Source: Anaerolineaceae bacterium (lineage in GTDB: Bacteria > Chloroflexota > Anaerolineae > Anaerolineales > Anaerolineaceae). From it: 64,000 nt of DNA. The notes beneath the pieces are model-generated. The model was not told where the DNA came from, made no database searches, and saw nothing but the letters and a program-made list of their open reading frames with translations. The stretch spans positions 1 to 64,000 of the forward strand of contig JAENZD010000001.1 in assembly GCA_016841445.1 (NCBI GenBank), written 5' to 3'. Positions 43,147-61,236 of the stretch are shown here, in pieces. The translations under genes and the position numbers were made by a program. Every line of letters starts with the position of its first letter. Position 1 is the stretch's first letter.

Positions 43147-43464
43147 TTAGTCTAAATGAAAATACTCCTCAAGTTCAATGAAATTCTCATCAGGCCGGCT
43201 TTCACCGCTGGTGAATGGGGACATGAATTCCTGCCAGCGTGTGTTGATTTCAGTTGCTGCCATTTTTGCCTGTGCTGAAGACAGGCTTTCTTCCGTTTCA
43301 AAATAACCAAAAACCAATCCATCCGCTCGCATGAATAAGGTGTAGTTATGCCAGCCCGATTCCCGCAGTGCATCTAACATTTCAGGCCAAACATTCTGAT
43401 GAAGGCGTTTGTATTCCTCGATCATTTCCGGATTAATTCTGAATTGAAAGCCAACTCGGGTCAC
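43147..43464 (-). CDS. rhaM: L-rhamnose mutarotase
   Basis: This 105-residue protein interconverts the anomers of L-rhamnose. It has the RhaM pattern: basic start TRVGFQFRI, then YKRLHQNVWPEM with the catalytic His near 22, then HNYTLFMRADGLVFGYFET. It starts at GTG, preceded by AAAAGGAAAA. It lies between the binding protein and the isomerase. In Rhizobium the equivalent is called RhaU. Confidence 0.92.
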   Translation of the reverse strand: MTRVGFQFRINPEMIEEYKRLHQNVWPEMLDALRESGWHNYTLFMRADGLVFGYFETEESLSSAQAKMAATEINTRWQEFMSPFTSGESRPDENFIELEEYFHLD

Positions 43465-43492
43465 GATTTTTTCCTTTTGTTCAATTTAGACA

Positions 43493-43531
43493 ACTTCGGC
43501 AATCAGGAAAGTTTCACCCGATTGCCGAAGT
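43493..43531 (-). promoter_or_regulatory. Stem-loop between rhaS and rhaM
   Basis: A perfect 12-bp stem (ACTTCGGCAATC/GATTGCCGAAGT) with a 15-base loop begins 40 bases after the rhaS stop. No T run follows, so it is more likely a 3' mRNA stabiliser or processing barrier than a full terminator. Confidence 0.65.
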
Positions 43532-43570
43532 GTTGTGTCATTTCAAATAACTTTCAGTGGATCTGATCGT

Positions 43571-44644
43571 TTACCAGTCAAAATCGTCGATGTTGTCGGC
43601 ATTGTAAACGAATGGTAAACCGAGCAAAACATTCAGACCAAGTTCAGGATCATCCTGAACGGTATACTCGCCAAGGCGGCCGGCTGTGAATGTTTGGCCA
43701 GCTTCGGCTGTAATTTCACCCGTTGCCAGGGCATGTGTTGTGTATACGGCAAGATAAGCCAGGTCAGCAGGATTCCAAAGTGCGAATTCTGGAGACGAGC
43801 CGTTCTTGACATATTCACGCATCTGGTTGGGGGTACCCAAACCAGTGACGAATACCTGACCGATCAGATCGGCATCAGTAACGGCACGAGCGGAAGCAGC
43901 AATACCAACGGTTGTGGGGGCAATGATCACTTCGAGATCAGGATATTTTGTGAAGAGTGATTGGGCTTCGTTGTAGCTCTTGGTGTCATCATCATCACCG
44001 TAAACGGTCTCTACCAGTTCCAGGTTGGCATAGGCTTCTTCGCTAGCGAGCATTTCTTCCATAGCTGCAATCCAGGCATTCTGGTTGGGGGCTGTGGAGG
44101 TTGCGCTCAGGATAGCGATTTGGCCGCCGTCTTCACCGGCAAGGCGTGAAGCCATATCAAGCTGAATTTGGGCAATACCAGCTAATTCTGCCTGGTTAAT
44201 GTGGATATCTCGGCCAGCAGGAGCAATGGCTGAATCCCAGGTCACGACGGCAATACCAGCATCCATCGCAGCCTGTCCAGTTGGGACGAGGGCATCTGCA
44301 TCATTGGCGGAAATTGCTAAACCGCACACATTCTGAGCGATCAGCGAGTTGAGCAGTGTGATCTGTTCTGTTGCGTCAGCGGTTGCGGAACCCTGGTAAA
44401 GAACTGTAATACCCAATTCCCCTGCAGCTTCCTGTGCACCAACGTTACCGGTGTCGAAATAGGGATTGCCGAGATTCTTTGGAACCAGGACGTAATTTTC
44501 ACAGGTTGGGGCTTCTTCGACGACTTCCTCTTCGGTTTCCTCAACGACTGCTTCGGTTGCTTCTTCTTGTGGGCCGCATGCTGCCAAACCCAGGCTCAGG
44601 ATCACCATAAGAATTGATGCAATTGTAAATATTCGGAACTTCAT
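43571..44644 (-). CDS. rhaS: Rhamnose ABC transporter substrate-binding lipoprotein
   Basis: This is the extracytoplasmic receptor of the importer, 357 residues. A lipobox SLGLAAC places the lipid on Cys23, followed by a Glu/Val-rich linker to about residue 48. The mature domain is the periplasmic-binding-protein type I fold (YVLVPKNLGNPYFDTGNVGAQEAAGELGI). DADALVPTGQAAMDAGI and VTGLGTPNQMREYVKNG are typical of rhamnose/AI-2-type receptors. Its own binding site is AAGGAGAC. A perfect AAAGGAGGTGA lies 74 bases upstream of the ATG. Confidence 0.88.
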   Translation of the reverse strand: MKFRIFTIASILMVILSLGLAACGPQEEATEAVVEETEEEVVEEAPTCENYVLVPKNLGNPYFDTGNVGAQEAAGELGITVLYQGSATADATEQITLLNSLIAQNVCGLAISANDADALVPTGQAAMDAGIAVVTWDSAIAPAGRDIHINQAELAGIAQIQLDMASRLAGEDGGQIAILSATSTAPNQNAWIAAMEEMLASEEAYANLELVETVYGDDDDTKSYNEAQSLFTKYPDLEVIIAPTTVGIAASARAVTDADLIGQVFVTGLGTPNQMREYVKNGSSPEFALWNPADLAYLAVYTTHALATGEITAEAGQTFTAGRLGEYTVQDDPELGLNVLLGLPFVYNADNIDDFDW

Positions 44645-44717
44645 TTTTTTGTCTCCTTCTTGATTAGAATTATTGGTTTAAATTGTGAAATGCGATAGGT
44701 TAATCCCTTCCCAACCA

Positions 44718-44728
44718 TCACCTCCTTT
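44718..44728 (-). promoter_or_regulatory. Unpaired perfect anti-anti-SD sequence upstream of rhaS (candidate STAB-SD)
   Basis: AAAGGAGGTGA is fully complementary to the 16S 3' end yet 74 bases before the rhaS ATG, and rhaS has its own AAGGAGAC. The only nearby ATG is two bases past GGAGG, too close for initiation; if used, it would give a 25-codon ORF ending in the rhaS ATGA. Confidence 0.55.
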
Positions 44729-44750
44729 AAGTGTTTTCATATTTTTTAAA

Positions 44751-45878
44751 TTAGATTTCTGCTAAAACAGGCGCTCGGGACCAGAAGAAAAATACAAAGA
44801 ACAGCACAAAGAGTGCAATGATCCCAACCACAGCCAGAACCGTTTTCCAACGAAAACGTGTTGCTTTATTGGCTGCGATTCGCTGGCCGATATGAGGTAA
44901 GAAAATAGAAACGATCAACAACAGACCGATGATCGTACTTTGGACCTGGCTCTGGATGTTTACGAGCCCCATCCCAAACCTGAGAAGTCCGATTAAAAGC
45001 AGGGAGAGGACTGCACCATACATGCTGCCCTTCCCGCCATCTATGTCCACGCCGCCCAATACAGTGGCTGTGATCACAGCTAATTCAAGGCCGGTTCCAT
45101 TATCTGGCCGTGTGCTGCCAAATCGGGCTGCTAAAACCAATCCAGCGAAGGCAGCCATAAAACCTGAAATGACGAAGAGCGAAAATTTTATCTTATCAAT
45201 CGGAACGCCGGAATATTTAGCAGCTTCTTCGTTGTTACCGATGGCATATAGGTGCCTGCCGAATTTTGTGGCGTGCAGAATGATCCCAAAAATGATCGCC
45301 AGGCCGATAAAAATTGCCACGGACACAGGTATCAAGGAGCCCCCGACACGACCTTGCCCTAGATAAGTAAATTTTGCGGGGTAGTTACGAGCTGCCTGGT
45401 CACCTAAAAACCCGTAGGCAATTCCCCGGAAGAACGCATAGGTGCCGAGGGTAACAACCAGTGAAGGAAGTTTTACCTTTGCAATCAGGTAACCGTTGAG
45501 CACACCGCCCAAGGTTCCGAGTGCCAGCCCGGCGAGCGCTGCCAGCCAAATATTGACACCCATATTATGCAGCAATCCCATAAATGAAGCACTCATACCC
45601 ATATTAGAAGCAACGGAAAGGTCAATATTTCCTGTCACAACGATGAAAACCATGGGAAGCATCATCAGACCTATTTCCATGAAGTCAGAAGATGTGCGGG
45701 AAATGTTTTTAGCATTCAGGAAATAGGGGGAGAGTCGGGTGTTGACCAGAACAACGATGATGATTAAGACAACCAATAAAAGTTCCCAATTCTTAAAAAC
45801 ATCCGTAAGAGAACGGCGAGTCGCACGTTCTGAGATAGTGGCAGCGGAGGTGTTTTGGGGATTGGCTTGAGATTTCAT
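44751..45878 (-). CDS. rhaQ: Rhamnose ABC transporter permease (second)
   Basis: The 375-residue membrane subunit has about ten helices and the BPD_transp_2 pattern: GNIDLSVASNMGMSASFMG near 100-118, the EAA-like coupling block YAIGNNEEAAKYSGVPIDKIKFSLFVISG near 215-243, and GGVDIDGGKGSMYGAVLSLLLIG. Its start overlaps the stop of rhaP by one base. Two different permeases (rhaP, rhaQ) form the channel. Confidence 0.88.
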   Translation of the reverse strand: MKSQANPQNTSAATISERATRRSLTDVFKNWELLLVVLIIIVVLVNTRLSPYFLNAKNISRTSSDFMEIGLMMLPMVFIVVTGNIDLSVASNMGMSASFMGLLHNMGVNIWLAALAGLALGTLGGVLNGYLIAKVKLPSLVVTLGTYAFFRGIAYGFLGDQAARNYPAKFTYLGQGRVGGSLIPVSVAIFIGLAIIFGIILHATKFGRHLYAIGNNEEAAKYSGVPIDKIKFSLFVISGFMAAFAGLVLAARFGSTRPDNGTGLELAVITATVLGGVDIDGGKGSMYGAVLSLLLIGLLRFGMGLVNIQSQVQSTIIGLLLIVSIFLPHIGQRIAANKATRFRWKTVLAVVGIIALFVLFFVFFFWSRAPVLAEI

Positions 45879-46891
45879 TATTTTGACCTCACAATGCGTT
45901 TGGAAATGAGCTTATCGGATACCACTGCAATGATGATCAATAATCCCTGGGCAGCTAGCTGCCAGAAAGGTGAGATCTGGATCAGGGTTAGTGAGTTTTG
46001 AATAATACCCAGAAGCAGTGCACCTAAAAGTACGCCTGGAATTGTGCCAACACCGCCGCTGGTACTCACGCCGCCAACCACAGCGGCTGTCACGGTTTGA
46101 AGCTCAAACCCCAACGCACTGTTGGTTTGAGCGGATTCGAAGCGTGATAACCACAACACACCGGCGAGTCCAGATATCAAACCACTTAAGACATAAACCA
46201 GGAGCTTGATCCGTTGGGGGCGGATACCGGCAAATTCTGCGGCATCTGCGTTGCTTCCCACAGCGTAGATATTCCGTCCAACACGGGTGAATTTAAGGAA
46301 AATGAAAGTTAGTGCAGCAATCAGGAGCGCAATAATTATCAGGTTTGGGACACCGAGCGGCTTGCCCTTCGATAATAATTTTACGCTTTGAGGAAGTTCA
46401 AAGGCATTGATCCACGTACCCTGGCTGTAGAAAAAGACCAGACCGCGATAAATGCTCAATGTACCCAGGGTCGCGATGATCGGTGGAACCTTGCCCACTG
46501 TGATGATCAAACCATTGAATGTCCCTAACACAGCACCGAGTGCGATGCCCAGAAGGACAGCGGCGATATCAGGTATCCCTGAATTGGCGCTGAGGGTGAA
46601 ACCTACCATCATGGCAACCAAACCGATGACGGAACTGACAGAAAGATCGATGCCGCCTGTCAGGATCACCATTGTCTGTGCCATTGCCACAATGATCATA
46701 ATTGAGATATTCATCAGGATATCTGTCAGGTTGTTTATCGTTAGGAAAGATGGTGCTCGGAGTGAGACTGCGACTACCAGAATGGCAATGAACACGATGA
46801 TACCAACTTCCCGGAAGCGAGAGAAAAGTTCCAGGAGATTCAGTTTCTGCCGGGGGACCTGTTTTCCAATGCTTGTTTCTTGATCTGTCAT
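45878..46891 (-). CDS. rhaP: Rhamnose ABC transporter permease (first)
   Basis: The 337-residue permease has about nine helices, ILTGGIDLSVSSVIGLVAMMVG near 78-99, and the coupling loop YAVGSNADAAEFAGIRPQRIKLLVYVLSG near 213-241. It overlaps the ATPase gene by four bases (ATGA type), so it is translationally coupled. The order ATPase-permease-permease-receptor matches rhaTPQS of Rhizobium except that the receptor is last. Confidence 0.88.
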   Translation of the reverse strand: MTDQETSIGKQVPRQKLNLLELFSRFREVGIIVFIAILVVAVSLRAPSFLTINNLTDILMNISIMIIVAMAQTMVILTGGIDLSVSSVIGLVAMMVGFTLSANSGIPDIAAVLLGIALGAVLGTFNGLIITVGKVPPIIATLGTLSIYRGLVFFYSQGTWINAFELPQSVKLLSKGKPLGVPNLIIIALLIAALTFIFLKFTRVGRNIYAVGSNADAAEFAGIRPQRIKLLVYVLSGLISGLAGVLWLSRFESAQTNSALGFELQTVTAAVVGGVSTSGGVGTIPGVLLGALLLGIIQNSLTLIQISPFWQLAAQGLLIIIAVVSDKLISKRIVRSK

Positions 46892-48396
46892 TGTTGGATC
46901 CTTGTTCTCACATCTTCGGTTGCAGCAGTAAGGATTTTTTCCTGTGTTGCCGCCTCTCGGGAAAACTCTGCGGTGATATAACCCTCACGCATAACTATAA
47001 TACGGTCGCTCATCCCCAAGATTTCGGGCAATTCCGATGAAATTAAAATGATCGCCATACCTTCAGCGGCGAGTTTTGTCATGAGCATGTGCACGGCAGC
47101 TTTGGTTCCCACATCAATTCCGCGGGTTGGTTCATCCAGGATTAAGATCCGGGGGTTGGTCGACAGCCATTTGCCAAGGACAACTTTTTGCTGGTTCCCC
47201 CCGGAAAGCTCGCGAGTTTTCTGTTGAATGCTGGTTGCACGGACCTCCATCTGGCAGGCGACTTCGAAGGCCTCTTTGTTTTCACTGCGGATTTGAATCC
47301 AGCCTACTTGAGAAAACCGGTCCAGACGAGGTAAGGTGATATTCTTGGTGATATTCATTTGGGGTATGAGTCCATGCTGCAGGCGATCTTCGGGGACATA
47401 TGCCAACCCTAACGCCATCGCCTGGCGGGGAGAAGTGATCGAAACCGTCTGACCATCCAATTTAATGGTACCGCTAGTTGCTCCTCTGATACCAAATATG
47501 GTGTTGGCAACATCCGTCCTGCCTGCGCCAACCAACCCTGCAAAGCCAAGGATTTCTCCCCGGCGCAATTCAAAACTGACATCCCCGAAGGTCGTACCAT
47601 TAGAGAGGTTCTCAACGCTCAATACCACATCAGATGGGGGGACCTCAATTTTTGGGAACTGTTCCGAAATTGAACGCCCAACCATCATCCTGATGAGATC
47701 TTCCCGGTTGGTTTCTGCGATGGGTTTTGTATCCACATAGGATCCGTCCCTCAGTACAGTGACCCGGTCAGCGATTTCGAAGAGTTCCTCAAGGCGGTGT
47801 GATATGAAAATGACGGCAGTCCCATTCTTACGTATGTTTCTCACGAGCCTGAACAGGTCTTCCACTTCATTTAGTGTCAGGGATGAGGTGGGTTCGTCCA
47901 TGATCAGGACACGTGCATTAATTGAGAAAGCGCGTGCAATCTCGACCATTTGCTGTTCTGCAATGCTCAGATTGCGAGCTTTTTGCTTCAGGTCAATTTT
48001 GACGCCTAGCGAATCGAGTAATTTTTTCGCTTCCGCATATAATTTTCGCCAATCAACCATTTTGGTGTTGTTTAGCGGTTGCCTGCCTATGAAAATATTT
48101 TCTGCAACATCCAGATCAGGGAATAGGCTTAATTCCTGGTAAATCGCAGCGATTCCCACATCACGGGAATCACGGGTGTCGTTAAAGGAAACTCGCTCTT
48201 CATCAAAATAGATTTCACCGGAACTTGGTTGGTGAAACCCAGTAATTATTTTGACTAATGTTGACTTCCCAGCACCGTTTTCACCCAGAAGGGCATGGAT
48301 CTCACCAGTCTTTAAAGAGAAATCCACATTGTGAAGGACTTCAACGCCAGAGAAACTTTTGGAAATATTTCTGAGTTCCAGAATGATTTCACTCAT
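46888..48396 (-). CDS. rhaT: Rhamnose ABC transporter ATPase (two ABC cassettes)
   Basis: The 502-residue protein has two fused cassettes, as in RbsA/MglA/RhaT. The first has Walker A GENGAGKSTLVK near 38-49 and Walker B VLIMDEPTSSLT near 161-172. The second has the variant Walker A GLVGAGRTD near 290, the signature ELSGGNQQKVVLGKWL near 398 and Walker B LILDEPTRGIDVG near 420. It powers uptake of rhamnose through rhaP/rhaQ. It overlaps the end of the regulator gene by 8 bases. Confidence 0.88.
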   Translation of the reverse strand: MSEIILELRNISKSFSGVEVLHNVDFSLKTGEIHALLGENGAGKSTLVKIITGFHQPSSGEIYFDEERVSFNDTRDSRDVGIAAIYQELSLFPDLDVAENIFIGRQPLNNTKMVDWRKLYAEAKKLLDSLGVKIDLKQKARNLSIAEQQMVEIARAFSINARVLIMDEPTSSLTLNEVEDLFRLVRNIRKNGTAVIFISHRLEELFEIADRVTVLRDGSYVDTKPIAETNREDLIRMMVGRSISEQFPKIEVPPSDVVLSVENLSNGTTFGDVSFELRRGEILGFAGLVGAGRTDVANTIFGIRGATSGTIKLDGQTVSITSPRQAMALGLAYVPEDRLQHGLIPQMNITKNITLPRLDRFSQVGWIQIRSENKEAFEVACQMEVRATSIQQKTRELSGGNQQKVVLGKWLSTNPRILILDEPTRGIDVGTKAAVHMLMTKLAAEGMAIILISSELPEILGMSDRIIVMREGYITAEFSREAATQEKILTAATEDVRTRIQQ

Positions 48397-49180
48397 AATG
48401 ATTATCTGCCTCGTTGCTGCATATGATGGTCTTTATCCCCGATTGTTCCAATTTTTCTATCCATGTTGGGGAAATTCGTTCATCGGTCAGGAGCTTATGA
48501 ATCTCTTCAATACTGGAAAAAGGTGTCAGGTCTTCCTTGCCAAATTTAGAAGAATCGATCAAGGCATAAATTTTTTGGCATGACTCCATGACTTTGCGTT
48601 TCAGTTGGGCTTCATTTATTTGAAGTTCTGTCATCCCGCGCTCTATAGTAAAACCGCTGCAGGAGAGAAAAGCTTTTTGGACATAAAGGTCCTTTATGAT
48701 TTGTTCGCTCAATAAGCCCGTGACGGATGACGTGTTGTAATTAACCGCTCCGCCGATCAGAATGACATTATTGGAAGGATTCCTGGCAAGTTCTTGCGCA
48801 ACCTCAAACCCATTGGTTATCACCCGTAATTCCTCATGTTTTGAAAGCTCGCAGGCAAAACAATAGCCTGTTGTACTGGCGTCGATCAGGATTGAATCGC
48901 CATTTTCAACAAATTGAGCTGCTTTCACTGCAATTGCACGTTTCGCATCCAGGTTTTTCGCATAACGACTCTTGAAGGAGTTATTTCCTACCTGGAGCGG
49001 CTCGGATAAGACCGCACCGCCGTGAACGCGTTTGACGCGCCCCTCATTCTCAAGTGCATTAAGGTCGTTGCGGATGGTGCTTTCTGATACCCCCAACTTG
49101 TCTGCCATTTCAGTGACACGTAAGCAGGCTTCTTTTCGAAGCGTATCAAGGATGTAAAGCTGTCTTTTTTGTGTGGTCAA
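48389..49180 (-). CDS. rhaR: DeoR-family regulator of rhamnose genes
   Basis: This encodes a 263-residue repressor-type protein. The N-terminal winged helix (RQLYILDTLRKEACLRVTEMADKLGVSESTIRNDLNALENEGRVKRVHGGAV, about 5-55) is the DeoR signature. The C-terminal sugar-phosphate-sensing domain shows ILIDASTTGYCFACEL and VILIGGAVNYNTSSVTG, typical of the SorC/DeoR effector site. As first gene of the rhamnose operon it probably autoregulates, sensing a rhamnose-derived phosphate; candidate operators lie upstream. Confidence 0.85.
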   Translation of the reverse strand: MTTQKRQLYILDTLRKEACLRVTEMADKLGVSESTIRNDLNALENEGRVKRVHGGAVLSEPLQVGNNSFKSRYAKNLDAKRAIAVKAAQFVENGDSILIDASTTGYCFACELSKHEELRVITNGFEVAQELARNPSNNVILIGGAVNYNTSSVTGLLSEQIIKDLYVQKAFLSCSGFTIERGMTELQINEAQLKRKVMESCQKIYALIDSSKFGKEDLTPFSSIEEIHKLLTDERISPTWIEKLEQSGIKTIICSNEADNHYE

Positions 49181-49200
49181 GTTAGCGCCTTACTGTTATC

Positions 49201-49258
49201 TGTAGAATAATTGATGATATCTACAAATTATCATAAATTAATTCTTGAAATATGTCAA
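49201..49258 (-). promoter_or_regulatory. Rhamnose operon promoter with candidate DeoR operator
   Basis: On the minus strand TTGACA (49253-49258) and TATGAT (49230-49235) are separated by 17 bases. Just downstream TGTAGA (49201-49206) and TCTACA (49220-49225) form an inverted repeat, spanning the start site. The 11-mer TGTAGAATAAT recurs exactly at 49340-49350, making it a likely second operator copy. Confidence 0.65.
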
Positions 49259-49428
49259 GATAATTGCAGAAATTACTCGAATATGCTGATATTTCAATGA
49301 ATTCCTTTAAAAATCTTCAAATCCGCCCTGATAGAAGTATGTAGAATAATGGACAGAGATACGATAAGCTGAGTTAAATGGATCATTTGAGAGCTGTATT
49401 ACCACCCTATTAATTAATATTTGAGGAA

Positions 49429-50805
49429 TTAATCGTTCAATCGATCAAGTTGGTTGATCACCTGTTGTGGACTAAGATCTGGTGTGATGAATCCGGCGAT
49501 CAGCTCAGGAGCAATAGCAGGGTTTGCCACCCTGCCCACCTTTTCATAGAAAGCATTTTTTGATTTACGATCCCCAAAATGATGATTGGCCCAATCGCTC
49601 TGGTAGCCCATGCCGGTCAGCCTTTCCATGCCGGTATGGCCATATAAGAAATAAGCGCCGGCTATGAAAATATCTCTGATTGGTGATAGCTCAGGGGTGT
49701 CAAAATCATCCATCAGCTTTTGCCCGTACGCGTTCATTTCGGTCCCGACCAGGACTGGCAGGTTAAGATCCTGGGCGAGTTCGACAACTTTATAGAGTTT
49801 GTTTATTTTTCGTGTCTTTTCCGCAGGATCTGAGATATTCCAGTTGCGGTCCGGGATGATATTCAGTGCTGCAGCACCCTTGGAGATCAATAAATCGAGC
49901 AACGACTCCATTTCACGCTCGCCAGCCGAGGTGCCGTCCAGCCAGGCAGCGCATGGCAGGGCTTTGGCTGCACGGATAATGGCGTGATATTCATCCACTG
50001 TTGGAAAGGTGGTTTCATCCGGTTGAATATAGCCCACACCCCCGCGCTTCATCAGCTTTTTGCGCAGCAAGTTATTGAAGGCGTTTTGGTCTTTGAGGAC
50101 CATTTTGATGTCTTCCAGTGGAAGATCCAGCTTTTCGCCCCAGAATTGAACAGGATCATCCAAGACAATAAAGGATTTTTCTGCAATTTTCTGCACCATG
50201 TGGCGCTCAGTCACGTTTCCGGCTGGGGTCAGCGGGACGATATCCTCTTCATAATCCAACGAGAGGGGTGCCAGAAACTGGTTTACTCTTTTTAAGATCT
50301 GCTGATTGCGCTGTGATACCCGGTGGCGGATATCCTTCAATGCAGGCTCCGCAACTTCAGGCACTGCGGAAGAGGAGAAGCCGGTGCCCATGTGATAGCA
50401 AACGCCCGGCTCGCCCGGAGAATTGATCTCCACCTGGCTGAATTCCGGGATGAATACCCGTGTTTCGATGCCGGCTGTGCTGCGCAGGCCGACAACATCA
50501 CAGGCATCCAAAAATTCATCTACGCCATCCAGAACGTCAAAGTCAATGATCCCCATGAACTTTGCCCCCAGTTTTCGCCCCAACCAGGCGATGTGCGAGG
50601 GGGAAAATCCATACCCGTTAAAGGAGTAGAAGGTATGGCAGTGCAGGTTAGCGATATCTCTTGCTTGCGGCAGTTTAACGGCACCTGTTTGAGCCAGTTC
50701 TGCCAATTCCTGCAGGGCAGCTTGCCGCATGCTGAGATCGAAATGATCTAGCTGTTCTTCAAGCTGTGTGATTTGGGTGGATTGCTTATTTTCATTCATT
50801 GTCAT
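49429..50805 (-). CDS. PHP-domain protein
   Basis: The 458-residue protein has the polymerase-and-histidinol-phosphatase fold, a metal-dependent phosphoesterase. NLHCHTFYS at 53-61 gives the first two His ligands (H55, H57). GIIDFD at 85-90 replaces the usual third His of DHD with Phe89, so one metal site is altered. E114 in GIETRVF is kept. Later helices have no recognised domain. It is transcribed after fucI in the same direction but across a 259-base gap with a hairpin, so membership in that operon is uncertain. Substrate unknown. Confidence 0.6.
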   Translation of the reverse strand: MTMNENKQSTQITQLEEQLDHFDLSMRQAALQELAELAQTGAVKLPQARDIANLHCHTFYSFNGYGFSPSHIAWLGRKLGAKFMGIIDFDVLDGVDEFLDACDVVGLRSTAGIETRVFIPEFSQVEINSPGEPGVCYHMGTGFSSSAVPEVAEPALKDIRHRVSQRNQQILKRVNQFLAPLSLDYEEDIVPLTPAGNVTERHMVQKIAEKSFIVLDDPVQFWGEKLDLPLEDIKMVLKDQNAFNNLLRKKLMKRGGVGYIQPDETTFPTVDEYHAIIRAAKALPCAAWLDGTSAGEREMESLLDLLISKGAAALNIIPDRNWNISDPAEKTRKINKLYKVVELAQDLNLPVLVGTEMNAYGQKLMDDFDTPELSPIRDIFIAGAYFLYGHTGMERLTGMGYQSDWANHHFGDRKSKNAFYEKVGRVANPAIAPELIAGFITPDLSPQQVINQLDRLND

Positions 50806-50987
50806 ATTCTCTTGGTTTTGGATTTGCCGGGTTTAATTATCAATCTTATTCTAACATGGTGATTTCAATAACTCAGGGATTAAACAACAACTTAATGATG
50901 ATTCCAAATAAGTCTACCTGCATAAGCAAGTAGCTGATCTGGTAAATTTCCTGATTGAGCAACATGAGCAATTGAAAAAACTATATG

Positions 50988-51019
50988 GGTAGGGGCAGCA
51001 CGCTTTGGCTGCCCCTACC
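50988..51019. repeat. Perfect 12-bp hairpin repeat
   Basis: GGTAGGGGCAGC and GCTGCCCCTACC enclose an 8-base loop between fucI and the PHP gene. There is no T run, so read-through is possible. The rest of 50806-51064 shows nothing else. Confidence 0.6.
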
Positions 51020-51064
51020 ATAATCTATGGAGATTGATGATTATTTTCGATTGCCACCACAGCT

Positions 51065-52870
51065 TTAGTATTGACCATAAATGGGGCCAAAATTCTTGCA
51101 AGCCCGGAAGTCCGCACCCTGCATATCCATCACGCCAAAGGCTGTCCATGTGCTGGGGCGGAAGAGATCTGCTTCTGCCACATTGTGCATGCAGACCGGG
51201 ATGCGCAGGATAGAAGCCAGTGCGATCAGGTCAGCACCGATATGGCCGTAGCTGATCGAGCCGTGGTTTGCACCCCAGTTCGCCATCACGGAATAGACGT
51301 CCTTAAAAGCGTTATTCTCAGCCAACCGCGGGACGAACCAGTGCGTTGGCCAGGTGGGGTCGGTGCGTTCATTCAAAGTTTTGTGAACTTCCATCGGGAT
51401 ATCGACTGTCCAACCTTCTGCAATCTGCAGTACAGGTCCGAGACCTTTGACGATATTCAGACGGCTCATGGTCATGGGCATTTCGCCCTTGGTGAGGAAC
51501 CCGGAGGAATATCCGCCGCCCCGGAAGTAGCCGGTGCTGGCGGGATACCAGTCGGTTGCTTCGAGACAGGCTGCAGCTTCATCTTCCATGATCTCCCAAT
51601 AAGGTTTCATGACCGGCTTGCCATCTTTCTTCTGCATGCCTGTGGCGTCGAGGGTGGCCGCACCGCTGTTGATCAGGTGGATCATGCCGCCTTCAGCGTG
51701 ACCTTGCAAGTCGTATCCAGTCACTCGCTTGACAGCTTCCGGGCTCCAATAGGTACGGACATCGGCGAAAATCTGGGCGGTATTGGTCAGCAAGTACCCG
51801 AAGAGCATGCCCAAGCCGTTAAGCGCATCATTCTCAGTAGCCATGATATAAGGCGCCCGGATGCCGTTCCAGTCAAAGGAGGAGTTCAGGATGGCTTCCA
51901 TGAAATCCCCGTTGGGGAAGTGATCGGTCCATTGGCGCTGCCCCTGGAAACCCGATGCGATGGCATTGTGTCCCATGGCTTCTTCACCATAACCGAGCGC
52001 TTCCAATTTCGGGTTGCCGACCATCAAATCACGCCCAATCAATGCCATTTTCACGACAGTTTCCCAATCCCTGTCTTTTTGCTCTCTGGAGCGCTGCATG
52101 TGTTCCGGGTTGTGGTCCCTTCCTTCACGGCAGTTGGCCTTTGTCCACGACAATGCCCGGGTATATTCTTCCTTGTCATAGATCTCTTCATCGATCCGGC
52201 GTGTGAACTCGCTCATATCGATGGCTTCCACGCGCATACCCAGGTAGGCTTCGAATAGATCCTGATCGACGATTGAACCTGCAATGCCCATCGAGGTCCC
52301 ACCGATTGAGAGGTAGGATTTTCCGCGCATCATGGCTGCGGCTAAACCTGCCCTGGCAAAACGCAGCAGTTTTTCCTGGACATCCTCAGGAATGGTCTCA
52401 TCATCGTTATCCTGGACATCATGACCATAAATGGAGAAGGCTGGCAGGCCTTTTTGGTTGTGTGCTGCCAGGACTGCCGCTAAATAGACCGCGCCAGGCC
52501 GCTCTGTGCCGTTAAACCCCCAGACAGCCTTCGGGGTTATGGGATCCATATCCATGGTCTCAGAGCCATAGCACCAGCATGGTGTCACGGTGATTGAGAC
52601 GCCCACACCTTCACGGGCAAATTTCTCAGCGCACTTTGCTGATTCTGCGACACCGCCGATGGTTGTGTCTGCGATGACGCATTCCACCGGTTCACCGTCA
52701 GGATAGTGCATGTTCTCGCTCAGCAGCTGCGCCACCCGTTTGGCCATGCCCATGGTTTGGTCTTCAAGGCTTTCACGGACGCCGTTCATGCGCCCGTCAA
52801 TGGTTGGCCGGATCCCAATCTTAGGCATGGATCCGATCCATCGCTTTCCAAATCCCTTTTTCTCTGCCAT
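51065..52870 (-). CDS. fucI: L-fucose isomerase
   Basis: This Mn2+-dependent isomerase converts L-fucose to L-fuculose and in other species also accepts D-arabinose and L-galactose. The 601-residue length matches E. coli FucI (591). Conserved regions: [12 protein letters not shown] at the start; [19 protein letters not shown] near 363-381 and [13 protein letters not shown] near 388-400 with the metal Glu and Asp; [14 protein letters not shown] near 543-556 with the third ligand. AAGGAT leads its ATG. No fuculokinase or fuculose aldolase is adjacent, so the classical fucose route is incomplete here. Confidence 0.92.
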
Positions 52871-52926
52871 ATCTTTTATCCTTTCAGTTCTTATGGTCCC
52901 TGATCATAATGGACCACCAGGTTTGG

Positions 52927-53337
52927 TTATTGTTCTGTGACTCTTCCTGATTCCAGCATCATGTTTGCATATTGGATCGTATCCCCGGTCCGTATGATCC
53001 CAATAGCCTTTGGAACGGATTTCTTGATATCATCCGATGGTTTAAAGGTGAGAGGGATCTTCCCGAAAGCCGAAAAGAAGGCCTGCTGAACAGCCTCCGT
53101 GTTTTCTAGTTTGAATTCTTCTGCCATGGTGACCTTGCAGATATCAAAGTTGGGCTTGATCGCTTCAAAGACCTGCAAGACCGTGGGAATATCATCAATC
53201 AGTGATAAATCGATGATTTCCACGTCCGGGAAGTAAGTGTAACCGCGGTCTGCGATCACCAGGGTATTGTTGTGCCGGACACGAGCCAATAAATCATTTA
53301 ATTGGGGATTTAATATGCCTTTTTTGAGCAAAGCCAC
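52927..53337 (-). CDS. RbsD/FucU family sugar mutarotase
   Basis: The 136-residue protein converts sugar anomers or pyranose and furanose forms. LNDLLARVRHNNTLVIADRG near 13-32 carries the catalytic His20 and the Asp of the family; the C-terminal TIQYANMMLESG is also typical. With FucI next to it, FucU-like L-fucose mutarotase is the likelier role, but sequence alone does not separate FucU from RbsD. GGAGGTGGC before its start is a strong binding site. Confidence 0.82.
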   Translation of the reverse strand: MALLKKGILNPQLNDLLARVRHNNTLVIADRGYTYFPDVEIIDLSLIDDIPTVLQVFEAIKPNFDICKVTMAEEFKLENTEAVQQAFFSAFGKIPLTFKPSDDIKKSVPKAIGIIRTGDTIQYANMMLESGRVTEQ

Positions 53338-53381
53338 CTCCTGATTTCATGTTAAACGTGATAAATTTTAAGCATTTAATG

Positions 53382-54236
53382 CTAAAATCCTCTCAAATCG
53401 GTACTGACCCGACGTGGTAGCCCAGGCTTGGGTTTCCTCTCGAGGACTTTGTATTCAATGTTCATGCTATTGAAGAAGGCGCGTTTTTCCGGCCGGTCGC
53501 CATCATGATTCACGATGAAAATATCGGGTTTGATGGACCGGACTTCTGGTTCAGCATCCAGCCAGCCAGAGCCGGTTGAAAGGATGGCTTTTTTGACATG
53601 CCGGATGGACTGCACCCAATACAACCGTTCTTCTTGGGGAAACAGCGGGTGCCCCTCACCTTTGAGCAGCCTGAGGTTTTCATCGTGACCTACCACAATA
53701 TAGAGATCCCCAAAAGCGGATACTTCTTCAAAAAACCGGACATGCCCTGTATGCACCCAATCAAAACAACCGGAGACCATGACCTTTTTTTTCTCAGTTG
53801 AACCTGGTTTTTCTTGTGGGTCAGGCATTGGAAAACCCAACAATTTGTTCTTTGGCAGGATAATGAAATCATTTTCGTTTTCCAGGAGAAAGGAGCCCAA
53901 ATCTGTGTTTGCCTGCTCCCTTGTGATGATCCACAGCGGAATTCGCCCTTCCTCTTTAGATTTCTGTTGAAGATCCGGGTTCATAACAGGAGCGATTTGG
54001 TCTGTGATGCTGATATCCGTGACAAAACGAATTGCTTGCAGATAATAGCGCCTTTCCTCAAGTAGAAACTTTGGTGGCTTACCTGTTGCTTGTTCAACTG
54101 CCTTATCGGAGTACAGCATGACATGGACATCCCCAAGTAAGCGATCCGCTTCCTGAATAAAACGAAGATCCTGGGTGCGTAGATCGTCAAATGCGCCAAA
54201 AACCAATGCTTTAAAATCGTGTCCAGTTTCGATCAA
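53382..54236 (-). CDS. Two-domain nucleotidyltransferase, first domain degenerate
   Basis: The 284-residue protein carries two cytidylyltransferase-like (HxGH) domains. The C-terminal one (151-284) is intact: GCFDWVHTGH at 156-165, then LLKGEGHPLFPQEERL at 190-205, similar to HldE/TagD adenylyl- or cytidylyl-transferases, and RVSTDLRG near the end. The N-terminal one (8-125) has the same fold start, FGAFDDLRTQD at 13-23, in which RTQD replaces HTGH. This parallels eukaryotic ethanolamine-phosphate cytidylyltransferase. TTG at 54236 is used because GAGGAGGG precedes it and it begins just after the upstream stop; the longer ATG reading overlaps the kinase gene. It probably activates the phosphate made by the kinase. 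Confidence 0.72.
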   Translation of the reverse strand: MIETGHDFKALVFGAFDDLRTQDLRFIQEADRLLGDVHVMLYSDKAVEQATGKPPKFLLEERRYYLQAIRFVTDISITDQIAPVMNPDLQQKSKEEGRIPLWIITREQANTDLGSFLLENENDFIILPKNKLLGFPMPDPQEKPGSTEKKKVMVSGCFDWVHTGHVRFFEEVSAFGDLYIVVGHDENLRLLKGEGHPLFPQEERLYWVQSIRHVKKAILSTGSGWLDAEPEVRSIKPDIFIVNHDGDRPEKRAFFNSMNIEYKVLERKPKPGLPRRVSTDLRGF

Positions 54237-54237
54237 G

Positions 54238-55035
54238 TTAATTTCCCTCCTCAGGCTTAATTCTAATGCTAACGCCGAATGTGCCCGGCACGGGTTCATC
54301 TGAAATGATGTAAAAATAGCCACCGCCGCAGCCCGAATACATTGCGCCATGGTAGCGGGATTGGTAATAAGATAATAATGCCATCAGGTCCATGGTGATG
54401 GTGGGATGCCGGACAACATGGGGCAGGATCGCTTCCCAACAGCGCATGGTTTCATTCATCGTTTCCCCCAAGCTTTGAGCATCCATTTCGTTGATTGCAT
54501 CAAAGCAGTCTTTTCCGGTTTTACCAAGCCGGCCGATCCATTCTGGATCAAGGTTCTTAATGCCTAATGGAAAATAACCTGGGGGGCGCTGGTTGACAGG
54601 TAAAACATGGATAACGCTTTCAAGCCAGGCAGCCACCTGGGAGTCGTTATTTGATTCAATGTGAACAGGAAAATAGCCGTCTTCGAAATTTACGTCATAA
54701 TCAAGACGGTTGATCCCAGGAAATAGGATGCCGGCCATGTCCTGCGAACCGGAGGGATCAGGTTTATCAGCGTTTTCAAGCCGGTACAGTTCACGCATTA
54801 AAATTTGAGGGTCTTCATCCGGCAGGGTATCACCCCAAAGCCGGATCGCGGCCTGACGGGTGCTGGTGCCAAGTCCGCATTTTGGCATCCAAGCGAAGGT
54901 AGGATTCACCGCGACCACCACCATCGAACCGGGGGGTTCGGGGTTATGCCTTGAAACAAATGGTTGGTCGATCCATCCACCAGATAATGCCAACCGGTAA
55001 GGCATTTTACTGATAATGGCATTAAGTCCTGGCAT
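54238..55035 (-). CDS. GHMP-family sugar kinase
   Basis: The 265-residue kinase resembles the fucokinase/HddA branch. Motif 1 is PYRLALSGGWIDQPF at 12-26 (like LAGGWTDTP), motif 2 CGLGTSTR at 53-60 (the ATP-binding GLGSS), then SGSQDMAGILFPG at 95-107, and motif 3 YSGCGGGYFYII at 233-244. Members phosphorylate the anomeric or C7 position of sugars. It is short for the family (usually 320-400). It sits between the epimerase and the nucleotidyltransferase, so it probably makes a sugar-1-phosphate for them. Confidence 0.75.
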   Translation of the reverse strand: MPGLNAIISKMPYRLALSGGWIDQPFVSRHNPEPPGSMVVVAVNPTFAWMPKCGLGTSTRQAAIRLWGDTLPDEDPQILMRELYRLENADKPDPSGSQDMAGILFPGINRLDYDVNFEDGYFPVHIESNNDSQVAAWLESVIHVLPVNQRPPGYFPLGIKNLDPEWIGRLGKTGKDCFDAINEMDAQSLGETMNETMRCWEAILPHVVRHPTITMDLMALLSYYQSRYHGAMYSGCGGGYFYIISDEPVPGTFGVSIRIKPEEGN

Positions 55036-55070
55036 CGATTCCCTTTCTTTACAGGAATTTATTTTACAGC

Positions 55071-56171
55071 TTAAAGTTTTCCGGCAGGTGTGAACTTCCC
55101 GGCTTTCCGATCCTCATATTGTTCTTTGATCCACTTGTAAGTTTTTTTCATGCCGGTTTTGAGCGAGGTATCCGGTTCCCAATCTAAAATGCTTTTAATA
55201 AAAGTGTTGTCGCTGTTTCTGCCGGCGACACCCCTGGGTGCATCCAGTTGATAGTGCCGTTCTAATTTCACACCGGCAATGTCTTCGATCAGGCTGACCA
55301 GGTCATTGATGGTAACCAGCTTGCTGGTCCCCAGGTTGATGGGTGTTGCGATTAGATCATCACAGTGCATGATCAAATCCACGCCTTTGACGCAGTCATC
55401 GATGAACATAAAGCTGCGGGTTTGCGTGCCATCACCCCAAATATCGATGCACAGATCACCGGAATCCATGGCTTCGATCACTTTCCGTGTGAGCGCTGCA
55501 GGTGCTTTTTCCCGGCCGCCGTCCCATGTTCCGTTTGGACCATAAACATTATGAAAACGGGCAATAAAGGTCTTCATCCCACGTTCAGCTGCATATTCCT
55601 GGCAGAACATTTCGGACATCAGTTTTTCCCAGCCGTAACCGCGCTCAGCCATGGCGGGGTAGGCATCCGATTCTTTCAGTGCTCGGACATTGGGGTCTTT
55701 TTGTAGATCAGTGTTATAGGCGCAGGCTGAGGAGGAAAAGAAGTATCGATCCACACCAGCGTGGTAGGCTTCCTCGATCAGATGGGTGTTGATCAGGATA
55801 CTGCGCATACATTCCACCCTGAAGTTCTCGATGAAACCCATGCCGCCCATGTCCGCAGCCAGGTTGTAGACTTCTACCGCACCTTCCACAGCTCGCTTGC
55901 AGTTGGGCTGCTCGCTTAAATCCAGGCATAAGTTTTTAACGCCCGGTGTGGTTTGATACCAGATCGGGAGCGGTTTTTTATCAACAGCGCGGATATTTGT
56001 GAAACCCTGGTCTGCAAAATAACGCACCAGGGAACCGCCGATAAAACCGCCAGCCCCTGTCACCAGGATCAGGTCGTCTTTTTTTCGATCAGGATGTGTT
56101 GCTGCAATCAAATGTTGTTTCAAAATTGTCCTCAATTCTTTCTTACGATCATATTTAAACTTACCAATCAA
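55071..56171 (-). CDS. GDP-mannose 3,5-epimerase-like SDR
   Basis: The 366-residue extended SDR closely resembles plant GDP-mannose 3,5-epimerase (GDP-D-mannose to GDP-L-galactose). Shared blocks are VTGAGGFIGG near 37-46, NLAADMGGMGFI at 103-114, RFHNVYGPNGTW at 205-216, then GGREKAPAA, and WGDGTQTRSFMFIDDC at 245-260. The positions corresponding to the plant catalytic residues are kept: Cys150, Tyr179, Lys183 and Lys222. A basic N-terminal 30 residues precedes the fold. It is 8 bases after the LacI gene and first in the catabolic-side operon. Confidence 0.82.
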   Translation of the reverse strand: MIGKFKYDRKKELRTILKQHLIAATHPDRKKDDLILVTGAGGFIGGSLVRYFADQGFTNIRAVDKKPLPIWYQTTPGVKNLCLDLSEQPNCKRAVEGAVEVYNLAADMGGMGFIENFRVECMRSILINTHLIEEAYHAGVDRYFFSSSACAYNTDLQKDPNVRALKESDAYPAMAERGYGWEKLMSEMFCQEYAAERGMKTFIARFHNVYGPNGTWDGGREKAPAALTRKVIEAMDSGDLCIDIWGDGTQTRSFMFIDDCVKGVDLIMHCDDLIATPINLGTSKLVTINDLVSLIEDIAGVKLERHYQLDAPRGVAGRNSDNTFIKSILDWEPDTSLKTGMKKTYKWIKEQYEDRKAGKFTPAGKL

Positions 56172-56179
56172 AAATATTT

Positions 56180-57196
56180 TTACCCGATCTTTCCGCCGCT
56201 GGATTCTCTGATGGTCAGTTCAACAGGAAAGATAATTTCCTCAAAATCCGTTGATGGTTCCGGTTTTTCTTTGATGCGGGAAATGAGGATTTCAGTGGCT
56301 TTCTGGCCCATTTTATAAGCAGGCTGAGCCACATTGGTGAGAAAAGGTATCACTGTCAGGTTTTCTGGTATGCCGTCAAAGCTGCACACAGCAACATCCT
56401 GTGGCACCTTAATTCCAAGATTTCGAAGTTCAGCGAGAATACCAACCGAGATCAGGTTGTTGGCCGCAAAAATTGCAGTGGGCTTTGGTGAATTTTCTTT
56501 GGAAAAGATGGATTTTGTGAGATCAATACCACTTTGACGCGAAAACTTACCATAATAGCAATCAACAAATTTTGAGAGCCCGTGGTTTTCCATGGCGCGC
56601 TTGTAACCTTTGACTCGGTCCTGTGAAGTGGAAACCGCTTCTGGACCCGAGAACAGCGTGATGCGTCGGTGTCCCAAATCGATCAGGTGTTTTGTCAGCA
56701 GGTATGCACCGCCCTCAGAATCTCCTCGAACGATATCGACATTCTTGTTGGATACACAGCGGTCGATCACCACCAAAGGTGTTTTTTGGTCCTGGATCAG
56801 TTGAATTGAATTAGATCGGGTATCCGCTGGCACCAGGAGGATCCCATCAACCTGTTTTTGCAGCAAAAGTTTAACATATTTGCTCTCTTGATCAGAGGAT
56901 TCATCTGTGTTGCAGAAGATCACGTTATAGCCAGCATCACTGGCAGAATCTTCTACACCTCGGGCCATGAAATTAAAAAATGGGTTGGTGATATCTGTAA
57001 AAACCAGGGCAATGGTGTTGGTGCGCTTGGATTTTAAACTGCGCGCCAGAATATTGGGAACATAGCCTAGTTCATCAACAGCCTGGTTGACCCTGTTCCG
57101 GACCTTTTCGCTGACATACCCGGAATTGTTGATCACCCTGGACACAGTGATCGGTGCAACCCCTGCTTTTTTCGCAACATCATGGATGGTGGGCAT
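56180..57196 (-). CDS. LacI-family repressor
   Basis: The 338-residue repressor starts with the LacI helix-turn-helix and hinge (TIHDVAKKAGVAPITVSRVIN, then YVSEKVRNRVNQAVDELGYVPN). A sugar-binding core follows with VDGILLVPADTRSNS near 114-128. It is the first gene of the epimerase-kinase-isomerase operon and lies divergent from a sugar importer. Twin palindromes overlap both promoters, so it probably represses both sides and itself. The inducer should be the imported sugar or a product. Confidence 0.9.
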   Translation of the reverse strand: MPTIHDVAKKAGVAPITVSRVINNSGYVSEKVRNRVNQAVDELGYVPNILARSLKSKRTNTIALVFTDITNPFFNFMARGVEDSASDAGYNVIFCNTDESSDQESKYVKLLLQKQVDGILLVPADTRSNSIQLIQDQKTPLVVIDRCVSNKNVDIVRGDSEGGAYLLTKHLIDLGHRRITLFSGPEAVSTSQDRVKGYKRAMENHGLSKFVDCYYGKFSRQSGIDLTKSIFSKENSPKPTAIFAANNLISVGILAELRNLGIKVPQDVAVCSFDGIPENLTVIPFLTNVAQPAYKMGQKATEILISRIKEKPEPSTDFEEIIFPVELTIRESSGGKIG

Positions 57197-59073: not shown

Positions 59074-59093
59074 AGGAATATGAAGGTGTTTTA

Positions 59094-60086
59094 ATGACAG
59101 ATACAGTTCTTACTAAAGAGAAAAGATCAAGAGCAGATGTTATCCAGCGTTTAGCCGCCTTTGGTGCTTTACTGCTGCTTATTGTCGCTTTTTCGATAGC
59201 CTCGCCGTACTTTTTTACCTTTGATAACATCGTAGGTATCCTGATCGCCACCGCTGTTAATGGCTTGCTGGCTATCGGTGTGACATTCATAATCATCACA
59301 GGAGGGATTGATCTCTCTGTCGGTACGGTTATGACCCTTTCATCGGTAATGGCTGCCGTATTCGTTAAGCGGTGGGGATTGCCGATTCCTTTAGGGATTT
59401 TAGCGGCGGTTTTAACCGGTACTATCGCAGGTTTCCTAAATGGCGTTATGATTTCCCGGATGAAGTTACCACCATTCATTGCGACCCTGGGTATGTTGAA
59501 CGTGGCTCGAGGGCTTTCTCTGGTGATTACACAGCTCTCACCGATCTATTTCCCACTGGAATCGGGTTGGAATAATATTGCCATGGGCTCGGTACTGGGA
59601 GCCATCATTCCCGGTTTTGATATCCCGAACGGTGTGCTGATCATGTTTGCTGCAGCCGCTGTTGCAGGATTGATCCTATCGAAAACAGTTATTGGCCGCT
59701 ACACCTTCGCGATTGGCAGCAATGAAGAGGCAGCGCGTTTATCCGGTGTGAATGTGGCAATTTGGAAGATGGCTATTTATGCGCTGGGCGGTATCTTTGT
59801 TGGTCTGGGTGGTGTGGTGATTGCAGCCCGTCTCAATTCGGCTCAGCCAGCGTTAGGTCTGGGGTATGAGCTTGACGCAATTGCTGCAGCAGTCATTGGC
59901 GGTGTTTCCCTCAGCGGTGGTGAAGGTACGATCCTGGGAACCATCATTGGTGCATTTATCATCAGTACGCTGACCAATGGTCTCCGCATCCTTTCGGTGC
60001 CGCAGGAATGGCAGATCGTCGTTACAGGTCTTATTATCATCTTATCTGTTTACCTTGATATAATCCGCCGGCGAGCAAAGGCGTAA
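59094..60086 (+). CDS. Sugar ABC transporter permease (RbsC type)
   Basis: The 330-residue inner-membrane subunit has about nine to ten helices. Family blocks are ITGGIDLSVGTVMTLSSVM near 65-83 and the coupling loop FAIGSNEEAARLSGVNVAIWKMAIYALGG near 205-233, then GGVSLSGGEGTILGTIIGAFI. A single permease gene means a homodimeric channel, unlike the rhamnose system. GAAGGTG precedes its ATG. Confidence 0.9.
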   Translation: MTDTVLTKEKRSRADVIQRLAAFGALLLLIVAFSIASPYFFTFDNIVGILIATAVNGLLAIGVTFIIITGGIDLSVGTVMTLSSVMAAVFVKRWGLPIPLGILAAVLTGTIAGFLNGVMISRMKLPPFIATLGMLNVARGLSLVITQLSPIYFPLESGWNNIAMGSVLGAIIPGFDIPNGVLIMFAAAAVAGLILSKTVIGRYTFAIGSNEEAARLSGVNVAIWKMAIYALGGIFVGLGGVVIAARLNSAQPALGLGYELDAIAAAVIGGVSLSGGEGTILGTIIGAFIISTLTNGLRILSVPQEWQIVVTGLIIILSVYLDIIRRRAKA

Positions 60087-60141: not shown

Positions 60142-60152
60142 AAAGGAGGTGA
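60142..60152 (+). promoter_or_regulatory. Unpaired perfect SD upstream of receptor gene (candidate STAB-SD)
   Basis: AAAGGAGGTGA, identical to the copy before rhaS, lies 67 bases before the receptor ATG. No start codon is suitably placed after it. The receptor has its own AAGGAG next to its ATG. Confidence 0.55.
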
Positions 60153-60218
60153 GCAAGACAGAAAGATTGATTGTTTTGTTCCAACGGATAATTTAACCAA
60201 ACAAAATAAGGAGAAAAA

Positions 60219-61172
60219 ATGAAATCCCGAAAGTATTTGATTACTATCATTAGTTTGATTGTCGTCCTCGCCATGCTCGCAGCATGCGGCCCCAAGGAAG
60301 AGGAAGAAGTCTATATCCCTGTGATCTCAAAAGGCTTCCAACATGCCTTCTGGCTTGCTGTTGAAAAGGGTGCTGAGCAGGCTGCAGAAGAATTCGGTGT
60401 CCGCATCACCTTTGAAGGCCCCGAAACAGAAGCTATGGTTGATAAGCAGATGGATATGCTCCAGGCTGCCATCGATAAGAACCCAGCCGCGATTTGTTTT
60501 GCTGCTGTGGACTCTCAGGCTGCCATTCCTCTGCTTGAGGACGCACAAGAAAAAGGCATTCCGATCATCGCCTTTGACTCTGGTGTCGATAGCGATATTC
60601 CCCTGGCAACTGCAGCCACGGATAACGTTGCCGCAGCCGCTTTGGCAGCCGATAAAATGGCTGAATTGATCGGTGGCTCAGGTGAAGTTGCCATTATTGC
60701 GCATGACAACACCAGCCGGACCGGTATTGACCGTGTTGCAGGCTTCACCGATCGCATTGAATCTGAATATCCTGATATCACCATTGTTGATACGCAATAC
60801 GGTGGTGGGGATCAGCTGGAATCCACTAACCTAGCGAAAGCCATCATCCAGGCGAACCCGGATCTGAAAGGCTTCTTTGGTGCCAATGAAGGCTCCATTA
60901 TCGGTGTGCTCAACGCTGCCACAGAACTCGGACGTGAAGACCTCGTGATCATTGGTTATGACTCGGGTCAGCAGCAGATAGCAGCCATCCGCTCCGGTTT
61001 GGAAGCAGGCGCGATCACCCAGAACCCGATCGGCATTGGCTACGAATGTGTCAAAGCTGCTTATGAGGCTTACATGGGCGAAGAAATTCCCTCAGAGATC
61101 GATACCGGCTTCATGTGGTTTGATGCCTCCAACATCGATGATCCTGAAATTCAAGCAGTGCTGTACGAGTAG
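60219..61172 (+). CDS. Sugar ABC transporter substrate-binding lipoprotein
   Basis: The 317-residue receptor has a lipobox AMLAAC with Cys24, then an acidic stretch, then a type I periplasmic-binding fold of the RbsB kind (IPVISKGFQHAFWLAVEKGAEQAAEEFGV). ATAATDNVAAAALAADKMA and VIIGYDSGQQQIAAIRSG are typical hinge and C-terminal segments. The ligand is unknown; co-regulation with fucI and the epimerase suggests a fucose- or galactose-like hexose. A hairpin follows the gene. Confidence 0.88.
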   Translation: MKSRKYLITIISLIVVLAMLAACGPKEEEEVYIPVISKGFQHAFWLAVEKGAEQAAEEFGVRITFEGPETEAMVDKQMDMLQAAIDKNPAAICFAAVDSQAAIPLLEDAQEKGIPIIAFDSGVDSDIPLATAATDNVAAAALAADKMAELIGGSGEVAIIAHDNTSRTGIDRVAGFTDRIESEYPDITIVDTQYGGGDQLESTNLAKAIIQANPDLKGFFGANEGSIIGVLNAATELGREDLVIIGYDSGQQQIAAIRSGLEAGAITQNPIGIGYECVKAAYEAYMGEEIPSEIDTGFMWFDASNIDDPEIQAVLYE

Positions 61173-61208: not shown

Positions 61209-61236
61209 AAGAGGCCGTCCGACAGGGCGGCCTCTT
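61209..61236 (+). terminator. Hairpin terminator after receptor gene
   Basis: AAGAGGCCGtCC and GGGCGGCCTCTT form a GC-rich stem around GACA, followed by TCACTTTCT. The weak T run suggests partial read-through to the kinase, or an mRNA 3' stabiliser. Confidence 0.75.

Follow-up and report, generated by a model that had tools for sequence, protein, structure and literature searches.

Substrate-binding protein (SBP) genes of the bacterial family Anaerolineaceae often carry a leader element that is real, recurrent and specific to this gene class: a strong Shine-Dalgarno (SD) sequence placed far 5′ of the gene's own SD. Its position, pairing strength, gene specificity and avoidance of start codons, the hairpins 3′ of the genes and the presence of RNase J and RNase Y genes in the host are established at the level of sequence. 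We consider it fairly probable that this distal SD acts as a STAB-SD-like parking site for 30S subunits that, together with the 3′ hairpin, would stabilise the SBP segment of the mRNA.

Two receptor genes share a distal SD 11-mer

The window, meaning the whole 64,000-nt stretch of DNA that was analysed, contains two exact copies of the 11-mer AAAGGAGGTGA, at 44718-44728 on the minus strand and at 60142-60152 on the plus strand. In 100 dinucleotide shuffles of the window, the mean was 0.04 copies, and two copies occurred in none of them. When up to one mismatch was allowed, three matches were found against 1.19 expected, a count reached by 12 of the 100 shuffles, so the signal lies in the exact matches. 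The 3′ end of the 11-mer is 73 nt from the ATG of rhaS (44644) and 66 nt from that of the receptor gene at 60219. The features of the two loci are as follows.

44718..44728, minus strand: distal SD AAAGGAGGTGA of rhaS, apparently non-initiating; start at −84 from the ATG; −17.7 kcal/mol to the anti-SD
44653..44658, minus strand: proximal SD AAGGAG of rhaS; −9.3 kcal/mol
43571..44644, minus strand: rhaS, rhamnose-type substrate-binding lipoprotein (TIGR02637, 385 bits, above cut-off)
43493..43531, minus strand: strong stem-loop 3′ of rhaS; best 50-nt window −25.9 kcal/mol; no U-tract directly after
44751..45878, minus strand: permease gene 5′ of rhaS; stop codon 22 nt ahead of the 11-mer
60142..60152, plus strand: distal SD AAAGGAGGTGA of the second receptor gene, apparently non-initiating; start at −77 from the ATG; −17.4 kcal/mol
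60208..60213, plus strand: proximal SD AAGGAG of the second receptor gene; −8.2 kcal/mol
60219..61172, plus strand: Peripla_BP_4-type substrate-binding lipoprotein gene (second receptor)
61209..61236, plus strand: strong stem-loop 3′ of the second receptor gene; best 50-nt window −24.9 kcal/mol
59094..60086, plus strand: permease gene 5′ of the second receptor gene; stop codon 55 nt ahead of the 11-mer

An earlier sequence-only reading of this DNA had described the same SD 11-mer ahead of both receptor genes, a separate SD for each gene and a stem-loop after each, and all three descriptions proved accurate. It had also called the 11-mers free of an ORF. Taken literally, this does not hold, since a TTG lies 6 nt from the 11-mer in the rhaS leader and would give a 4-codon ORF, and since both leaders have one frame open between the 11-mer and an ATGA overlap at the receptor start; as a rule, across the 77 loci described below, it does. 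A search of window positions 40000-64000 for known RNA families gave three matches, all below their gathering scores, two of which were mir-5881 on the 3′ hairpin, on both strands. A consensus scan of positions 43400-62300 gave 29 promoter-like sites versus 24.5 in shuffles and 19 terminator-like sites versus 20.3.

The distal SD recurs within the family

The genome from which the window comes (3.35 Mb) contains nine exact copies of AAAGGAGGTGA and none of the reversed control word. Three of the nine lie ahead of SBP genes, the third being at C3:1024994, and two others (L001 and L005) immediately precede ORF starts, where they resemble ordinary ribosome-binding sites. We then searched for a pattern consisting of the 11-mer, 50 to 80 nt, GGAG, 4 to 14 nt and ATGAA, which was present in 47 of 101 genomes of the same family; the reversed pattern was present in none. 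The 77 distinct pattern loci that were read lie mostly ahead of SBP genes, and a lipobox was recognized in 64 of their proteins by a strict expression and in 66 by a laxer one. Pfam assignments, with overlaps left unmerged, were SBP_bac_1 (23), SBP_bac_8 (18), Bmp (16), SBP_bac_5 (11), Peripla_BP_6 (6) and Peripla_BP_4 (6). Ten less clear proteins were scanned singly, yielding five SBPs, one molybdopterin oxidoreductase domain and four without a match. Non-SBP pattern loci comprised two MIP channels, a PTS EIIC, a QueT transporter, two S8 peptidases and further secreted proteins. The two MIP (aquaporin/glycerol-facilitator) genes, L081 and L083, come from two genomes of one genus and have the distal 11-mer in closely similar leaders; the device is thus not confined to SBPs. 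Because the ATGAA in the pattern favors secreted proteins (MK or MN starts), our claim about gene class rests on the samples described next, which were drawn blind to the motif.

Many SBP genes carry the element in motif-blind samples

SBP genes were drawn by protein family alone, and twenty stretches of at most 20 kb each, centered on them, were analysed together with the window, giving 369 called genes. For calling starts and assigning genes to classes, we relied on a simple ORF caller together with a lipobox expression and phmmer. A leader was scored as positive if a 12-mer at −65 to −114 paired with the anti-SD at −11.8 kcal/mol or better, a cut-off chosen after leaders such as GAAAGGAGG (−11.9) had been seen. 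With the window included, a distal SD was present at 14 of 19 lipoprotein SBP genes and at one of four SBP-like genes without a lipobox, the latter being left out of the SBP totals for this sample, compared with permease genes (1 of 36), ATPase genes (0 of 30), other lipoprotein genes (0 of 10) and other genes (5 of 264). When both the window and the four lipobox-less genes were set aside, the counts were 12 of 17 SBP genes versus 5 of 290 others (Fisher p 3e-14). Strong sites were rare elsewhere in the SBP leaders of this sample: none of 19 at −30 to −64, one at −115 to −164 and two at −165 to −214.

Three further samples gave similar pictures. A second sample of the same family was positive for 16 of 26 SBP genes after three of 29 rows, all negative, had been left out (16 of 29 with them). 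The window's own genome was positive for 7 of 16 after six of 22 loci had been left out (five regulators and L019, whose start is unclear). In the sister family f2, 6 of 12 were positive, with 12 of 24 rows left out; the 12 that were counted include one gene twice (L270 and L292, negative), one probable regulator (L285, negative) and two positives below the Pfam cut-off (L290 and L291), and stricter filtering that removes these gives 4 of 8. One gene (G010: L233, L254) occurs in two of the own-family samples. No strong site was found at −30 to −64 in the own-genome (0 of 16), second own-family (0 of 26) or sister-family (0 of 12) SBP leaders. In three of the samples, the share of SBP genes below the cut-off ranged from about a quarter to slightly more than half (5 of 19, 10 of 26 and 9 of 16). 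In all 29 positives of the three further samples, the distal site exceeded the proximal SD in pairing strength (medians for the proximal SD, −8.7 to −9.1 kcal/mol), a difference that is partly built in by the cut-off.

Among RhaS homologues of the family, a distal SD was found at −77 to −96 in 8 of 10 genes, or 7 of 9 without that of the window; three of these homologues (L211, L214 and L215) are shared with the second own-family sample. In their leaders, the surrounding sequence has changed and the distal SD has been kept in variants such as GAAAGGAGG and AAGGAGGTGGT.

The distal SD usually offers no usable start codon

Across the 77 pattern loci, the three frames were open from the 11-mer to the gene start in 18, 17 and 19 cases, so none is favored. 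Start codons at spacings of 4 to 14 nt from the distal SD numbered 10 in 847 positions, compared with 40.7 in shuffles of the same segments, and for ATG alone the numbers were 1 versus 17.1. The minima over 2000 shuffles were 6 for ATG and 22 for the three start codons together. The three start codons also rose from 10 at these spacings to 49 in the next 11 positions, while control triplets differed much less over the same two intervals, with TGA 10 versus 19, AGT 8 versus 14, GAT 20 versus 24 and GTA 13 versus 15. By sequence statistics, therefore, a start codon at a distance suitable for initiation is usually lacking after the distal SD. We rejected an in-frame N-terminal extension of the SBP: distances modulo 3 are evenly spread (27, 24 and 26 of 77), and 18 of the 77 loci have frame 0 open. 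The frame and start-codon counts of these 77 loci likewise do not support a translated leader peptide as a rule; the sequence-only reading had named such a peptide as an outcome that would refute it.

Pairing, folding and the 3′ boundary

The Anaerolineae anti-SD is given as CCUCCUUU in the consulted portion of PMC10783764. The distal SD is complementary to it, pairing being judged on this listed class sequence. A search with RF00177 for 16S rRNA gave no match in the window's own genome, and a 16S-end pattern matched 0 of 41 family genomes, a single-contig one included, which may reflect rRNA missing or masked in the genome collection. In predicted folds, the 11-mer core was unpaired at 0.27 on average versus 0.38 for the proximal SD; as the core is mostly paired in these folds, its accessibility to 30S is not obvious. 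Neither with its own leader nor with the upstream region did the 11-mer pair above shuffle level (mean z 0.23 and −0.13, respectively), and hairpins just 5′ of the 11-mer were not enriched (0.18 versus 0.26 of windows). A possible tRNA 3′ part after the 11-mer of one locus (L034, 1501-1590, GGTCGAATCCC) was discarded, as ARAGORN finds no tRNA there.

We compared genes followed by a co-directional gene 30 to 300 nt downstream and found a strong hairpin after 15 of 17 SBP genes versus 32 of 98 other genes (p 2e-5); without the window, the SBP count was 13 of 15. Among genes with a strong hairpin, a TTTT lay nearby in 5 of 17 SBP genes versus 53 of 141 other genes. With a TTTT near only 5 of the 17, most of the SBP hairpins are unlike U-tract terminators, and some may simply be terminators. 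The window's own genome encodes RNase J (TIGR00649, 577.9 bits, over a cut-off of 400) and RNase Y (638.5 bits).

A parked 30S subunit as a shield, and its alternatives

Long pairing, the usual lack of a usable start codon, an A-rich stretch at the place that the subunit would occupy and the distance from the gene make a parked 30S subunit the natural reading of the distal SD. In the mechanism that we propose, the distal SD would capture a 30S subunit through long pairing with the 16S rRNA 3′ end, and the parked subunit would form a roadblock to the 5′-to-3′ exonuclease RNase J. RNase J would enter either after an endonucleolytic cut upstream, for which RNase Y is a candidate, or by attack on the primary 5′ end, while the stem-loop downstream of the SBP gene would block 3′-to-5′ decay. 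With the SBP cistron bracketed at both ends, receptor mRNA would outlive the permease and ATPase segments and more receptor would be made. We infer 30S occupancy, cleavage, stabilisation and the resulting protein ratio from sequence features. The distance of at least about 65 nt would presumably allow another ribosome to occupy the real start at the same time.

The STAB-SD proposal of the sequence-only reading, in which the receptor segment is processed out and stabilised, is strengthened by the recurrence of the element, its avoidance of start codons, its distance window, its presence before SBP rather than permease or ATPase genes, the 3′ hairpins and the presence of RNase J. Its processing part needs qualification. 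The element was found not only in 11 of 14 SBP genes behind a co-directional gene but also at −65 to −114 in three of five behind a divergent gene, with a fourth at −138, so processing-out is not the whole story. A protective STAB-SD also demands no distance window by itself, and in this respect the observed window counts against the protection reading. More broadly, a two-ended bracket, made of a non-initiating, over-strong SD about 70 to 110 nt upstream and a 3′ hairpin, might be a general device serving SBP cistrons across many ABC families (those for sugars, peptides, nucleosides and amino acids) in this Chloroflexota order, with idle 30S subunits parked against RNase J to set the ratio of receptor to channel; this wider claim seems to us evenly balanced between true and false.

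The distance rule is fitted at least as well by a standby or loading site. A 30S subunit held by the distal SD would then move on to the proximal SD, about 80 nt further 3′, which would make SBP initiation more frequent without shielding the mRNA. Structure in the spacers between the two SDs does not exceed the shuffle level (mean z 0.25), and at +19 to +24 from the 11-mer start the 77 loci have an A-rich block of about 50% A that resembles a real start-site context but has no start codon; both features would suit loading. However, no sample had a strong site at −30 to −64, where handover should be easiest, and the greater strength of the distal site, though partly due to the cut-off, suggests holding over release. 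We regard loading as a possible but rather unlikely explanation.

Retention of terminating ribosomes is less probable still and appears doubtful to us: a site just behind the preceding stop codon would recapture 30S subunits for reinitiation at the SBP start. It is consistent with 44 of the 77 loci, at which an upstream co-directional frame of at least 150 codons has its end inside the 11-mer or no more than 100 nt away from it, and with four loci at which the stop codon TGA forms the end of the 11-mer. However, 29 of the 77 have no such frame ending within 200 nt, and this, together with the SBP genes behind divergent genes, makes reinitiation unlikely as the general purpose.

It is very unlikely that the element is a DNA-level signal, either part of a promoter or a regulator site, that resembles an SD by chance. 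It does keep one orientation relative to the gene, as a promoter part would, and TAAAAT-like hexamers are slightly commoner in the last 20 nt before the 11-mer (15 and 15 per 10-nt bin versus 1 to 13 in the remaining bins upstream). Neither TATAAT-like nor TTGACA-like hexamers peak at a fixed offset from the 11-mer, though, which led us to reject a promoter at a fixed offset, and the variants GAAAGGAGG, AAGGAGGTGGT and GGAGGTGA shift position within the anti-SD complement, as fits 16S pairing and hardly a protein site. At one locus (L064), a palindromic TGTAAGCGCTTACA a few bases 5′ of the distal SD resembles a LacI-type operator and hints at a transcription start close to the distal SD in that operon. 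Finally, the least credible explanation is that ribosomes use the element as an SD to make a short leader peptide, with this translation regulating the SBP gene or being coupled to it. The open-frame and start-codon counts above speak against it, despite the TTG of the rhaS leader and the frame running to the ATGA overlap in both window leaders.

Relation to known systems

To our knowledge, experimental work on STAB-SDs covers few cases, mainly from Bacillus. With a distal SD at roughly half to two thirds of the sampled SBP genes, specificity for this gene class and control genes next to them, the long-standing question of non-productive 30S binding as a general mRNA stabiliser becomes directly testable. 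The parts of the element have precedents, which we describe from the consulted portions of the papers cited.

The STAB-SD of Bacillus thuringiensis cry3A binds 30S without initiation and blocks RNase J1 (PMC4113751), as worked out by Agaisse and Lereclus (1996) and Mathy et al. (2007) (both via PMC4113751). The Chloroflexota element resembles it in being an SD-like sequence far 5′ of the gene, separate from the gene's own SD and complementary to 16S rRNA, in a host with RNase J. Start-codon depletion and the lack of a frame bias would also fit an SD that does not initiate, although rhaS has its TTG at 6 nt. Unlike cry3A, it recurs on one functional gene class, often between operon genes, within a distance window and with 3′ hairpins. 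For cry3A, according to the portion consulted, the major transcript 5′ end has been mapped at −129, whereas the Chloroflexota element is known from sequence.

Among five decay-regulated ABC operons of Escherichia coli, it is in every case the SBP gene that is stabilised, irrespective of its position, and the 3′ ends of the stabilised segments are marked by stable hairpins that lack a uridine tract (PMC5927463, portion consulted). As in this malEFG-type decay, the Chloroflexota SBP cistron is the candidate favored segment at any place in the operon, and a strong hairpin, mostly without a U-tract, stands at its 3′ boundary (15 of 17 SBP genes). Unlike the Chloroflexota host, E. coli has no known 5′-to-3′ exonuclease, and where its stabilised gene lies downstream, the consulted text describes RNase E cleavage near an RNA structure and no second SD (PMC5927463).

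Binding of 30S without productive translation stabilises ermC, ompA and another E. coli mRNA (PMC7509114, portion consulted). There, too, the stabilising event is ribosome binding and not translation, as we propose here; those cases appear to use the gene's own SD, whereas the Chloroflexota leaders have a separate, stronger SD about 80 nt away. In Clostridium cellulolyticum, selective RNA processing and stabilisation have been described, with intergenic processing tuning subunit ratios (PMC4423207, portion consulted). That proposal is akin to ours in making intergenic processing a means of setting the subunit ratios of a complex; the main text of PMC4423207 contains no word starting with "Shine" and no mention of "ABC transporter". 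In the titles and abstract beginnings of openly licensed literature, we found no report of such leaders in Chloroflexota or of their lineage-wide attachment to SBP cistrons.

If true, the proposed mechanism would provide the 5′ half of a route by which RNase J-bearing bacteria could favor receptor over channel. Where E. coli does so through differential decay with RNA structures, the Chloroflexota counterpart would use a parked 30S subunit, and the lineage would be using ribosomes as an mRNA cap for one protein class.

Distribution outside the family

When occurrences of the pattern were counted in genomes drawn from the whole phylum, it was present in 2 of 2 genomes of the same family, in 7 of the 11 from the sister family f2, in none of the 5 from other parts of the class and in 4 of the 133 remaining genomes of the phylum. 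RhaS leaders of Actinomycetota had no distal SD in the 58 examined (59 loci), though the comparison is weakened by their high-G+C genomes. Among the 19 nearest RhaS leaders that were examined (L108 to L127 without L119), five reached the cut-off, at −81 to −106, in addition to L108, whose start was mis-called. We therefore rejected a general bacterial trait, since the Actinomycetota leaders and most of these 19 lack a distal SD. L108 lies on a contig labelled Kiritimatiellae (SLKG01000100.1), where a rhaS 81% identical to that of the window has a GAAAGGAGG leader; this is probably a mis-binned contig or a transfer.
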